Below are positions 6,068 to 24,583 of a DNA stretch of 27,582 bases, in pieces (position 1 is the first letter of the stretch; every line of letters starts with the position of its first letter). The stretch is from a virus. The DNA lies in the IMG/VR virus record IMGVR_UViG_3300042465_001777, positions 1-27,582 of that record. One strand, given 5' to 3'. A model generated the notes under the pieces. It saw nothing but the letters and a program-made list of their open reading frames with translations. It did not search any database and was not told where the DNA came from. The position numbers and the translations under genes were made by a program.

Positions 6068-6523
6068 TTAAGCCAGCCGAATCAGGCCGGTGCTGGCATC
6101 GTTGACGGGCATGGTCAGCGTGAATGTCCCAGCAGTCACTGTCTGTGAGCCAAAGGTGTGGACGCTGACTGCCTTATTGCTTTGCGTGCTGTTGTAGATC
6201 AGGACGGCATCAAAGGCTGTTGACAGCGTGACAGCGCTATAGCTGATGCTGGCGCTGGGGGTCACAAAGGCAGTCGTGCCGCTGGTGCTCGGTGCAGTGC
6301 CAAAGGTCACTGTGACGCCGCCGGCAGTGTAGCCAGTGCCAGAGACTTCGCTGGTGGAACTGTAGGCCGTGGTGGCCGCATTGACAGTGGCGCTGGCCAA
6401 GTACAGCGCAGCCTTGAAAGTGTCGGCAGTCGTTGCGGCTCGGATGACGCCCGTGCCAAAGTTGTGGTGACCGACCAGCAGTTCGCCTTTGAAGCTGGTG
6501 CAGAGGGCTTGAGTATTAGCGAT
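6068..6523 (-). CDS. Conserved phage virion protein, apparent ATC start
   Basis: The 151-aa reading continues far upstream of any in-frame ATG, GTG or TTG except a late TTG at 6400. Residues upstream of that TTG are clearly part of the protein: ANTQALCTSFKGELLVGHHN and then ATTADTFKAALYLASAT. These match the N-terminus I know for this family (usually M-A-x-T-Q-A-x-C-T-S-F-K). The codon at the expected Met position is ATC (6521-6523), 7 nt after a strong AAGGGG site (6531-6536) that overlaps the upstream stop. The C-terminal half ends with an 'AVLIYNSTQSNKAV' and 'FTLTMPVNDASTGLIRLA' beta domain. It probably belongs to the tail or head-tail structure. A base error for ATG is the main alternative. 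Confidence 0.75.
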   Translation of the reverse strand: MANTQALCTSFKGELLVGHHNFGTGVIRAATTADTFKAALYLASATVNAATTAYSSTSEVSGTGYTAGGVTVTFGTAPSTSGTTAFVTPSASISYSAVTLSTAFDAVLIYNSTQSNKAVSVHTFGSQTVTAGTFTLTMPVNDASTGLIRLA

Positions 6524-20974: not shown

Positions 20975-23119
20975 TCACAACCCAAAGTCGTTGACCGGCG
21001 GCGGTACGAGCCGCGAGGTCACCCCATTGCTTCGCCTAAATTTGACCCCCTGCACTGCCTTTAAGTGCAGGGCAATCCTCACAATGTCACCCTTTGTCGG
21101 AAAGGTTACACCTACCATCTCAGCCACCTCGGTCGATGTTTTGTAGCTCCACCTGGCCTTGTCAGCCGACCAATCGAGCTTGGTCTGAATCTTTTCAACG
21201 ATAGGGTCAACGGCTGTGAACTCTTTGTTGTGGGTGTTCAACTCACCCATCTGGTCACGGTCTAAGTACCAAGACTCGCCCGATTCGTAGATGGCCTTGA
21301 CCTCGGCCCAGAACTGCTGCATGTCAATCTGGTGGTCAAAGTCAATGGATTGACACTGAACAGTCCAGTAACGCCTGTTGCCGGTCTGGTCAGACAAGAA
21401 GCTCTCATCGTTGACGCTGGCAAAGAACACGGTCTGGCGCGGCTTGCTGGTGTTCTTTCTAGCGTAGGGCAGCCTGTATATATCCCTGTCGCTGGTCAGG
21501 AATGATTTAAGTGCGGCAATATCTGATTTTCTAAATGTCGCATCCAATTCACCTAATTCCACCATCCAGTGCGAGGTTGCCTGCCTGACTGAATCGGGAT
21601 TATCTGGGCGCAGAGTTAATCCGTCCTTGAGTAAATGCCCGTGGGCTAGGTTTTTAAACCAGCTTGTTTTACCGATACCTTGGTCACCGAGTAGAGTTAA
21701 TACGCCATGCGCTGATACGCCGTCTGGCCGGTAAAGGGCTGCAATAGCGCCGATAGCCCACTTGCGCATCATCATCTCTTTAATCTGGGTGTCGGGTGAT
21801 GTGATGGTTTGCATCCACTGACTTATTCGGCTCACCTTGTCCCAAGGCTTTGATTCAATCCAATCGACCGCTGGGTGAAAAGGGTGCTGTAGGCACTGCT
21901 GGGTCATGTACTCGGCCACCAGCGAGTGCGGCAGGCCGGACAGGATGGCTTGACTGACCATGTGGGTGACGGCAGCGTTGGCCTCATAGCCGTTGATGAC
22001 TTTGAGGTTTGGCACATGCACCACCTCCTCGCCTGACATGGTGTTGAACGAATACTGCACCTTGAGAAAATCAGACAGTGCGGCAAAGTTCTCAAGGGTA
22101 TTCAGGGGCTTGGGCTGCTTGCCTGCGGTCATGTGCGGCCAGACCAGGCCGACAGGCTCGTCATCAATCACCTCGACCTTGGTCACGGTCTTGGCCACCG
22201 ACAGGGGCGACCAGCCAAGAGATCGCGCCATCCAGATGAGCGAGCCAGCGCCGATCTGGGTGGGCTTGGCCTTGCGCCACTCACGCTCAGCAAAGGCTGC
22301 ATCGTGCTTGTGTGACTTGGCTGACCACGCCATAAAGATGCCGTGGCCGTCATCGCGCAGTGCGCCTTTGCTGGCGTACAAAACCTTCAGCCAATCCTCA
22401 AACGCGAGGTCAGGGTTTGGCATCTGAGCCAGCGCAGCCGTGGCCTGAATCGGGTCATTGGCCTCAAGCTGTCCAGGCTTGCGCTCTGCCAAGATGCTGG
22501 AGGTCATGGGCTTGCGGCCAATGAGCGTGCCGTGCAGCGAAAGCAAAGCCTCGCATCTCAGGATAATTTCACGGGCTTGAGCCTCGTCAAGGGTCATCAG
22601 GGCATCCCTGCCAACCAGCAAAGGCTCACCGCTGCCGTTCCATGAGTAGGGCTGGCCGGTGGTTGGGTGTACGGCATAGGCTACAAACTGCTGACCTGAT
22701 GCCAGAATCTCAACCTTTGAGCCTTTGATGACGCCATCGGCATCAGGCTTGTCGGTTTTCAGGGCGTAGGTGGCGGTGCTGACCTTGGCGAACTCTTCCT
22801 CGGTCCTGAACAGCAGTAGCTCGCGGGGTGCGTTGCCAATGCGCCGTGGTGGTGGCATCTCGTAGCAGCCAATGACATCGTAGGCAATGTCACGGATGGC
22901 GGCCACCAAGCCGGCGTGGCTGACATCGATGTCTATGCACGGGTTGTGCCGCGTCAAGATGCCGGTGTAGTTCTCGCTGTACTGGCTGGTGTGGGCCTCC
23001 CACCCGCCTTGCTGCCACTTGGCAGGGGCTGGCCGCTTCTCACCCCTGATGATGGGTACAGGCTCGTAGCCCTTGTCTGCGAGTAGCTGGGCGATGTCGC
23101 CAAAGGTTTGTTCAGTCAT
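20975..23119 (-). CDS. Primase-helicase: prim-pol N-terminus plus VapE-like helicase
   Basis: A 714-aa protein from the ATG at 23119 (MTEQTFGDIAQLLADKGYEP). Residues 1-200 look like a bifunctional primase-polymerase domain: 'GEKRPAPAKWQQGGWEAHTS', 'NPCIDIDVSHAGLVAAI' with a D-x-D metal site, and 'SKVEILASGQQFVAYAVHP'. The C-terminal half is a VapE/DUF927-type SF3-like ATPase with Walker A 'GDQGIGKTSW' near residue 478, 'SHWMVELGELDATFRKSDIA' as Walker B, and 'VFFASVNDESFLSDQTGNRR' plus 'YWTV' as sensor and arginine finger. It probably primes and unwinds DNA for phage replication. An in-frame extension to 23221 is Cys/Trp-rich noise inside the upstream gene. Confidence 0.9.
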   Translation of the reverse strand: MTEQTFGDIAQLLADKGYEPVPIIRGEKRPAPAKWQQGGWEAHTSQYSENYTGILTRHNPCIDIDVSHAGLVAAIRDIAYDVIGCYEMPPPRRIGNAPRELLLFRTEEEFAKVSTATYALKTDKPDADGVIKGSKVEILASGQQFVAYAVHPTTGQPYSWNGSGEPLLVGRDALMTLDEAQAREIILRCEALLSLHGTLIGRKPMTSSILAERKPGQLEANDPIQATAALAQMPNPDLAFEDWLKVLYASKGALRDDGHGIFMAWSAKSHKHDAAFAEREWRKAKPTQIGAGSLIWMARSLGWSPLSVAKTVTKVEVIDDEPVGLVWPHMTAGKQPKPLNTLENFAALSDFLKVQYSFNTMSGEEVVHVPNLKVINGYEANAAVTHMVSQAILSGLPHSLVAEYMTQQCLQHPFHPAVDWIESKPWDKVSRISQWMQTITSPDTQIKEMMMRKWAIGAIAALYRPDGVSAHGVLTLLGDQGIGKTSWFKNLAHGHLLKDGLTLRPDNPDSVRQATSHWMVELGELDATFRKSDIAALKSFLTSDRDIYRLPYARKNTSKPRQTVFFASVNDESFLSDQTGNRRYWTVQCQSIDFDHQIDMQQFWAEVKAIYESGESWYLDRDQMGELNTHNKEFTAVDPIVEKIQTKLDWSADKARWSYKTSTEVAEMVGVTFPTKGDIVRIALHLKAVQGVKFRRSNGVTSRLVPPPVNDFGL

Positions 23120-23402
23120 GCTGCACCCGATCTGGCCGTGCAGCTTGCCACTCAGACAAACCCAACAGCACATTGTGCAATTTGTGTGGGTCAATTTTGT
23201 ACACCACAACCAACAAAGCAAATTCTCGAAACAGACTGTCTGTTCTCTCTTTTACGGAAGCATTTCTATAGTCAGCCCAGCAAGCCAAGGTACTGGAATA
23301 TGCTGAGTGTTCCGGATCGCTGGTTGTCTCCGGCCAAGGTTTAAGAAGCACATTTCCTGTTTGACCATCCCACAGGAGCATCGTGTTGGTGCAATTCATC
23401 AT
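23112..23402 (-). CDS. Small phage protein upstream of primase-helicase
   Basis: A 96-aa ORF from the ATG at 23402 (a TTG at 23414 is also possible). The C-terminal part 'VVVYKIDPHKLHNVLLGLSE' with 'WQAARPDR' is a motif (D-P-x-x-H-x-V/A-L-x-x-L-x-E-W) that I recognise from small phage replication-region proteins, without a known role. The N-terminal half is polar. It starts just after the structured RNA/terminator, and its stop lies 8 bp inside the primase-helicase gene. Confidence 0.65.
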   Translation of the reverse strand: MMNCTNTMLLWDGQTGNVLLKPWPETTSDPEHSAYSSTLACWADYRNASVKERTDSLFREFALLVVVYKIDPHKLHNVLLGLSEWQAARPDRVQHD

Positions 23403-23412
23403 TTGTGGATCC

Positions 23413-23493
23413 AAAAAAAACCCAGGTCAACCTTTCTCTGGCGGTAGCCAGTTGGCAGACACGATGTAACTCGTGCAGAAAGGTTGGCCTGGG
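23413..23493 (-). ncRNA. Three-way-junction RNA ending in U8 (terminator or ncRNA)
   Basis: A 17-bp outer stem is formed by 23421-23437 (plus CCCAGGTCAACCTTTCT) and 23477-23493 (AGAAAGGTTGGCCTGGG), with a single non-Watson-Crick position (23427/23487). Two inner hairpins sit inside: CTGGC/GCCAG (23438-23442 and 23447-23451, 4-nt loop) and CACGA/TCGTG (23460-23464 and 23471-23475, 6-nt loop). On the minus strand eight T residues follow the stem at once (plus A run 23413-23420), so transcripts of this operon could terminate here. Known three-way-junction classes that I can check by motif (hammerhead, purine riboswitch) do not fit. Confidence 0.7.
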
Positions 23494-23497
23494 CCTG

Positions 23498-23683
23498 TTA
23501 CATATAAATCGCTGCCAAGCGATGTGCAGACTGTATCACATTGGGTAAAATACTCATGTTGTTGATCTCGCGGTTGACGACAAGTTGTTCTCCTTCTGGA
23601 GTGATCCAGTTACCCCTGATGGTTGACGCCGTCAGGGGTTTTTCTTTGGGGATGTTGATTCTAGTGCTTGGGCAGGTGGTCAC
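23498..23683 (-). CDS. Small ORF coupled to DNA methyltransferase, unknown function
   Basis: A 61-aa ORF with a GTG start at 23683 that overlaps the methyltransferase TGA as GTGA, the same coupling seen elsewhere in this phage. The sequence 'PLTASTIRGNWITPEGEQLV' and 'VNREINNMSILPNVIQSAHR' looks protein-like but matches no family I know. It ends just before the structured RNA. A plus-strand terminator-like hairpin (23613-23638) lies inside it. Without the start overlap I would rate it low. Confidence 0.5.
   Translation of the reverse strand: MTTCPSTRINIPKEKPLTASTIRGNWITPEGEQLVVNREINNMSILPNVIQSAHRLAAIYM
23613..23647 (+). terminator. Plus-strand rho-independent terminator-like hairpin
   Basis: On the plus strand CCCCTGATGG and CCGTCAGGGG form a 10-bp stem (one G-T pair) with a 6-nt loop, followed by TTTTTCTTT (23639-23647). 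This is a classical terminator layout, but it faces opposite to all genes here. It may stop antisense transcription from the left, or end an unrecognised plus-strand transcript. On the minus strand the hairpin is not followed by T. Confidence 0.6.
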
Positions 23684-24583
23684 TCAGCACTGAGGATTCT
23701 CCAAGCTGTTGCGGCACAGAGTGGCACTTGTCCATTGCCAATGGCTTTAAGTCTGTCCACCCTAGCGGCCACCCCATCAGCCACTCGACCCACATCGGGT
23801 TCAGTTTTCCACCAATGTCGGTCACTTGCTCCACGGCGTAATGCAAACTGTCCCAAGATCGATTCTTGCCGTCCTGTCGAATTACTGCTGCACTGCTGCC
23901 CTTGTACATGTTGGATGTTGGAGTCGGCCATGACTCTTTGGTTATGTAACCTATCGGCGGCCCCATTCCTGACCACTCCACCTGTTCTGACAGGCATCCT
24001 GCTCCCACCCCGTTCCTGCCTATCTTCGCCCTGTAATCCAAGCGCTTCTTCATTGATTCCGCTGACCTGGTTGGAATGTCTACTGTGCTTGGAGTTAGCC
24101 ACAATCCAGATTCGTTCTCGCTTGTGGTTTGCACCAATGTTGGCAGCAGATACAACTCCCCACCGACTGTCATACCCCATTGAGGAAAGGTCTGCAAGGA
24201 CTCGTCCAAGTCCTCTAGAAACGAGCATTGGACTGTTCTCCACGAATGCGTATCTCGGTCGAACTTCGCCAATAATCCGTGCCATTTCTCGCCACATTCC
24301 TGATCGCTCTCCATCGATCCCTGCCCCCCCCCCCCGCTGCGGAGATGTCTTGGCATGGAAACCCGCCAGATACGACATCAACAATGCCTCGCCACGGGAT
24401 TCCGTCAAAGGTTTGTACATCATCCCAAATCGGGAAAGGCGGGAGAAGGCCGTCATTTTGTCGGGCGCACAGTACGCTAGCTGGGTAGGGTTCCCACTCA
24501 ACGGCGCAGACTGTTCGCCATCCAAGGAGGTGTCCACCAAGTATTCCTCCACCAGCGCCTGCGAAAAGAGCCAGCTCATTCAT
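23680..24583 (-). CDS. DNA (cytosine-5) methyltransferase, frameshifted at G12 tract
   Basis: The gene starts at the ATG at 24583 (AAGGAG upstream, 8-bp overlap with DUF2800). Frame one carries motif I 'LALFAGAGGGILGGHLLGW' and the catalytic motif IV 'SGGFPCQDISAAG'. It then leaves frame at a run of 12 G (24324-24335). The other frame resumes with 'GAGIDGERSGMWREMARIIG', motif VI 'YAFVENSPML', motif VIII 'HKRERIWIVA' and the C-terminal motifs 'DVGRVADGVAARVDRLKAIG' and 'NGQVPLCAATAWRIL'. One G fewer would restore a 300-aa enzyme with normal spacing. It would methylate cytosine in phage DNA, probably against host restriction. Either a sequencing error or a real on/off tract. Confidence 0.88.
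24324..24335 (-). repeat. Poly-G tract (12 G on coding strand)
   Basis: Twelve consecutive C on the plus strand fall directly behind the catalytic Cys motif of the methyltransferase and separate its two reading frames. Runs this long are prone to slippage in replication and to sequencing miscalls. Confidence 0.95.

Follow-up and report, generated by a model that had tools for sequence, protein, structure and literature searches.

A very strongly conserved and previously uncatalogued RNA carried by some freshwater phages

The stretch of DNA analysed here, referred to as the window, is an IMG/VR virus record (IMGVR_UViG_3300042465_001777) of 27,582 bases. The genes on its minus strand run in the order SNF2 helicase, NUMOD4-HNH endonuclease, PD-(D/E)XK exonuclease and C5 methyltransferase, followed by the primase/VapE gene. 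The methyltransferase gene ends at 23680, upstream of a structured RNA that an earlier note had placed at 23413–23493, between a methyltransferase-linked ORF and the primase gene. Both neighbours were identified correctly, but an ORF of 96 codons at 23112–23402 stands between the RNA and the primase. The features of the locus are as follows, from upstream to downstream on the minus strand.

23541–23671, minus: flanking module outside the RNA, with a terminator-like hairpin, an AAGGAG ribosome site, a short leader ORF and the codons MSILP; common to phages without the element
23530–23540, minus: TGTGMTACANT, similar to an extended -10 (TGnTACAnT), the first bases of the cassette; invariant columns in alignment A3, missing at empty sites (L014, L010, L016, L084 and others)
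23508–23523, minus: P1 hairpin, AUCGC-UUGGCA-GCGAU; pair 19–32 is UA, UG or CG among homologues
23497–23502, minus: 5' strand of PK1, UGYAAC, with the P3 loop GUURCA as partner; compensatory U-A/C-G, columns 41–74
23477–23493, minus: 5' strand of the long stem P2, from the fold; compensatory pair 60–108, wobble 62–106
23459–23476, minus: P3 hairpin, whose loop GUUACA is the PK1 partner; from fold and alignment
23452–23457, minus: junction UGCCAA, PK2 partner of the P1 loop UUGGCA; 6 of 6 complementary, invariant in all homologues
23438–23451, minus: P4 hairpin with hypervariable tetraloop; from the alignment
23421–23437, minus: 3' strand of P2; from fold and alignment
23413–23420, minus: U8 tract, predicted intrinsic terminator; T-run right after the stem in all homologues
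23112–23402, minus: small ORF of 96 aa (MMNCTNTMLLWD...); its stop overlaps the primase ATG and it is 72% identical to the L032 ORF
20975–23119, minus: primase/VapE-type helicase gene (Pfam VapE-like, PriCT_2, Prim-Pol)

Folding of 23413–23493 gave -40.4 kcal/mol on the minus strand (z -6.5) and -42.4 kcal/mol on the plus strand (z -6.9), with none of 200 shuffles reaching the same value in either case. The three-way junction with two internal hairpins proposed for this region is therefore present, with a z of about -6 on both strands. The outer stem P2, which encloses the two hairpins, had been described as 17 bp long; 17 positions are indeed involved, but on the minus strand these comprise 16 standard pairs and one internal C·A. 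The single imperfect pair had been given as G-U on the plus strand and A-C on the minus strand, which is correct for that position, and the C·A mismatch is fixed in all homologues. The T8 run reported to follow the stem on the minus strand was found at 23413–23420, and at least six T lie directly 3' of the stem in all homologues. A stable stem followed immediately by a conserved U-tract has the form of an intrinsic terminator, from which we infer termination at this point.

The boundaries first given for the element were too narrow. Both conservation and pairing extend about 50 bases upstream of the 5' end reported earlier, giving an extent of approximately 23413–23540 and adding a 5' hairpin, P1, and two pseudoknots. 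In PK1 the strand UGYAAC is complementary to the P3 loop GUURCA, and in PK2 the P1 loop UUGGCA is fully complementary to the UGCCAA junction between P3 and P4. The strand paths suggest that both pseudoknots are compatible with a fully formed terminator stem, as P3 and PK1 can stack and run alongside P2 while the AGG linker of three bases extends to the P2 foot.

The homologues were compared in a gapless alignment (A3) of 126 columns and eight distinct sequences, in which 352 of 352 pair cells were standard. The earlier note had named a lack of compensatory changes as grounds for refutation; such changes are present in P1 (U-A to C-G, with a U-G intermediate), PK1 (C-G to U-A) and P2 (C-G to U-A), where both sides of a pair have changed, and two further pairs show wobble-only changes. 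The covariation score and the percentage paired exceeded those of all 500 shuffles and of all six slid registers, while the number of double-changed pairs alone, drawn from eight sequences with few variable pairs, was not beyond shuffling (122 of 500). The support for PK2 is its invariant complementarity alone, without covariation in A3. The remaining variable columns of the RNA part are confined to the P4 tetraloop or the P1–PK1 linker. So little variation within the helices suggests that the RNA is recognised by a protein or packs tightly into a tertiary fold. The strand sense, formerly regarded as uncertain, could be settled from the variable pairs: read on the minus strand, eight of their cells are G-U and none is A·C, and on the plus strand the counts are inverted. 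Because these eight G-U cells would turn into A·C on the plus strand, the minus strand is taken as the functional RNA. A structured RNA at this position is well supported.

When 2.9 million viral contigs were scanned with DNA patterns, the element was located in eleven, all belonging to this phage group; the relatives obtained in a primase search were 97%, about 90% and about 64% identical. The whole window was without a match in Rfam 15, and positions 23350–23700 at a relaxed threshold gave only sub-threshold scores. BLAST of the element against phage and plasmid records returned no match, and on the host side no credible match was obtained in 400 genomes (the family of one Comamonadaceae bacterium). 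A match of 25 bits in genome G194 was taken as chance, as it sits in apparently ordinary host genes. Two relaxed DNA pattern matches, L038 and L066, were also attributed to chance, having no structure or lying within a long coding gene; 16 pattern matches in genome contigs gave no score with the covariance model, and weaker matches of the model on the plus strand were the reverse complement of the same element. The earlier proposals of an unnamed phage RNA motif and of a regulatory RNA are both supported by the compensatory changes and by the lack of an Rfam family match. The element is an RNA of about 110 bases, uncatalogued until now, that is carried by some freshwater phages and very strongly conserved.

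The extent of this conservation was apparent when the RNA was compared with the adjacent genes. The intergenic DNA is 86–94% conserved where the primase proteins are 64–90% identical. Between the window and L027 the RNA is identical at 109 of 109 positions from P1 to the U-tract, compared to 88% nucleotide identity and 76% identity at third codon positions for the primase gene; at the average rate, the chance of zero changes in 109 bases is about 1e-6. Between the window and L032 the RNA is 93% identical, and the small ORFs, which are of the same family, share 72% of amino acids and 51% identity at third positions. These sequence comparisons point to strong constraint on the RNA; a recent exchange of the RNA by recombination between the window phage and L027 could add to the identity. 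A conserved leader peptide was ruled out as the cause of conservation, because its frame and length vary (9, 19 or 52 codons). In L028, L029 and L030 the leader ORF is open for 52 codons through the entire RNA and overlaps the start of the small ORF, and in other relatives it stops after 9 or 19 codons.

A small ORF is always found behind the element, of a zinc-ribbon type in ten contigs and of an unnamed type in the window and L032. It starts approximately 10–20 nt past the U-tract, where GGA is the sole possible ribosome site. Neither family gave a Pfam or PADLOC match above threshold, including Abi_2, and the window ORF was without a match in Pfam, PHROG or PADLOC; AlphaFold models of the two families were of low to medium confidence (pLDDT 60 and 74). 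The ORFs at 23112–23402 of the window (unnamed) and 47–271 of L027 (zinc-ribbon) are unrelated, yet both stand in this position after an RNA of identical sequence, and it follows that genes are exchanged at the site behind the RNA.

When the ORFs were used as queries, every locus recovered was one in which the RNA had already been located. L014, whose primase is 97% identical, matches the window as far as ATGAGTATTTTACCCAA, beyond which it runs straight into the primase; the window instead continues with TGTGATACAG..., followed by the RNA and the ORF. Eight empty sites of another clade (L007, L010, L016, L084, L085, L089, L093 and L097) are likewise without both RNA and ORF. L034 has a non-orthologous PriCT_2/AAA_25 protein in place of the primase, but retains the RNA and the zinc-ribbon ORF. 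The gene before the RNA is the methyltransferase in the window and directly the exonuclease in other relatives. Since empty sites have neither RNA nor ORF, the ORF is always behind the RNA and the primase is replaced in L034, the sequences indicate that the RNA forms a cassette with the small ORF and is tied neither to the primase nor to the gene upstream. The earlier suggestion of a structured 3' end protecting mRNA is a weaker proposal, because the RNA moves with the ORF that follows and not with the gene before it.

A short leader peptide (M-x-IL....ARGxxHG*) is conserved at the eight empty sites of the other clade; its stop overlaps the primase start, and it is likely to provide translational coupling to the primase. 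An 8-mer shared at empty sites, GCCAGAGG, was not accepted as a relic of the element, as it could be chance. An int-alpA RNA (RF02996) was detected on the minus strand of L034 at 6207–6271, with 36.7 bits against a cutoff of 35.8. It lies directly after the cassette and before the non-orthologous primase, placing two structured RNAs in tandem. The int-alpA RNA resembles the element in being a phage-associated structured RNA before a primase, but the two are separate in sequence and, in L034, in position.

The flanking module at 23541–23671 gave blastn matches of 80.7% to MW202879.1 and 89% to L014, and is also shared with L024–L026. Its hairpin, ribosome site, short TTG leader ORF and MSILP codons are joined to more than one type of primase among the window, L014, L024–L026 and MW202879.1, and the conserved MSILP leader module suggests a recombination joint. 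A terminator-like hairpin with a T-run is also located at 23612–23644 on the plus strand, opposing all the surrounding genes, and an equivalent is present upstream of the primase ribosome site in all inspected relatives.

After the block TGTGMTACANT come the most variable positions of the element, and after these an invariant CA at the P1 foot, spaced as is usual for a transcription start. This combination of an extended -10-like block and an invariant CA suggests, on the basis of the DNA pattern, that the RNA may have its own promoter and start with P1 at the predicted A23523. A consensus promoter scan did not list this candidate promoter, and the -35 box is poor.

Several known systems are similar in layout. 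The RCd22-abiF locus of a C. difficile prophage consists of a promoter, a structured RNA of approximately 100–130 nt, an intrinsic terminator and an ORF expressed by read-through (PMC12373285). The short IsrK RNA ends at a terminator, with a fraction of transcripts reading through to a small ORF and a phage gene, and works by base-pairing in trans with the long form of the same RNA (PMC4825925). In both systems the products are a short RNA ending at the terminator and a less abundant mRNA arising by read-through (PMC12373285, PMC4825925). The order of promoter-like site, RNA, terminator and ORF resembles that of RCd22-abiF (abiF RNA motif, RF03085), but the element has neither an Abi_2 protein nor the abiF motif and precedes two unrelated ORFs. 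The likeness to IsrK lies in the terminated short RNA and the read-through layout, predicted here from sequence, while the element has no Rfam match and its loops pair inside the RNA; it is placed outside both the IsrK and the RCd22-AbiF families. The P4 CI and P1 c4 RNAs (c4 family, RF01695) are also small structured RNAs, lying in leaders of replication or antirepressor genes of phages, but the element has no Rfam match and no antisense target of useful length was found near it, and its end is predicted at its own U-tract rather than by processing. Morons are inserts with their own promoter between genes that are adjacent in relatives. The cassette resembles them in this position and in its promoter-like site, but its terminator precedes the ORF and belongs to the conserved RNA.

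The best explanation, which we consider probable on balance, is a phage cassette on the minus strand in which the structured RNA attenuates the small ORF and the primase and is also released as a free molecule. The cassette separates the primase gene from the ribosome site and starting codons that originally belonged to it. Transcription would begin near A23523 at the extended -10 TGTGATACAGT and also enter from the upstream operon. The RNA would fold as it is synthesised, P2 and the U8 tract acting as an intrinsic terminator that releases a stable RNA of approximately 111 nt, and a minority of polymerases would read through into the small ORF and primase. As an attenuator, the RNA would hold expression of both low. 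The free RNA probably also binds a protein or another RNA, since its sequence, and not only its pairing, is nearly frozen. RCd22-AbiF and IsrK provide parallels in which terminator read-through into the next ORF has been measured (PMC12373285, PMC4825925). Against the attenuator cassette stand the poor -35 box and the silence of the promoter scan, the eight distinct sequences with few variable pairs and a PK2 without covariation, and the leader ORF of L028–L030, which is open across the whole RNA so that ribosomes could unfold the terminator.

A riboswitch-like or protein-responsive leader, in which the junction would act as the sensor and a ligand or a protein of the phage would determine if the lower half of P2, below the C·A hinge, forms and terminates, is possible but rather doubtful. 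It would account for the near-frozen helices and loops, the two pseudoknots and the hinge mismatch kept in all homologues, and it fits a terminator stem continuous with the junction and a start codon soon after the U-tract. However, a complementarity search of the leader and downstream sequence found no antiterminator pairing of useful length (at most 8 nt), the strand paths suggest that PK1 can coexist with full P2 so that no switch is forced, and the downstream genes are non-metabolic and change while the RNA does not. That the element is an ordinary intrinsic terminator of the upstream operon with an elaborate apex by happenstance is unlikely; P2 and the U8 tract have the appropriate form, but such a terminator has no need of an invariant P1, PK1, junction and P3 or of pseudoknot covariation, and would not be expected to go with the ORF behind it instead of the gene before.

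The position before the primase gene also recalls P4, in which CI RNA controls the replication genes via premature termination, as outlined in PMC4825925. A P4 CI or P1 c4-like RNA that pairs with its own leader to terminate replication genes is improbable, given the absence of an Rfam match or of an antisense target of at least 9 nt in the leader or ORF, the internal pairing of the loops, and an RNA that is not bound to one primase, as L034 shows. Antisense action in general is less likely, because no sufficiently long target was found close by and the loops are engaged within the RNA. A feature acting in DNA, for example a replication origin or recombination site, would suit the adjoining primase, the exchanged neighbouring ORFs and single-stranded DNA that could use G-T wobbles, but is quite improbable; the element is missing from many close relatives with the same primase, so it is not an essential origin, and the U-tract and strand bias fit RNA. 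By analogy with RCd22-AbiF, which has the same order of promoter-like site, structured RNA, terminator and ORF (PMC12373285), the RNA might neutralise a toxic small protein of the next ORF as a type III toxin-antitoxin or AbiF-like unit. This is very unlikely, as the identical RNA fronts two unrelated ORFs, there is no Abi_2 or other PADLOC or Pfam match, and no Rfam match was obtained even though the abiF motif is included in that database.

In these phages an uncatalogued structured RNA, more conserved in sequence than the adjacent primase, marks a site where small genes are swapped. Rather speculatively, it may represent a new class of RNA, a double-pseudoknot junction joined to a terminator, which binds a host or phage factor when free or senses in cis and serves as a platform for exchanged small genes, possibly directed against the host. 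If the RNA attenuates or acts as a free molecule, it would provide a defined RNA of approximately 111 nt with a predicted pseudoknotted fold, and a handle by which the exchangeable small phage genes behind it may be found.
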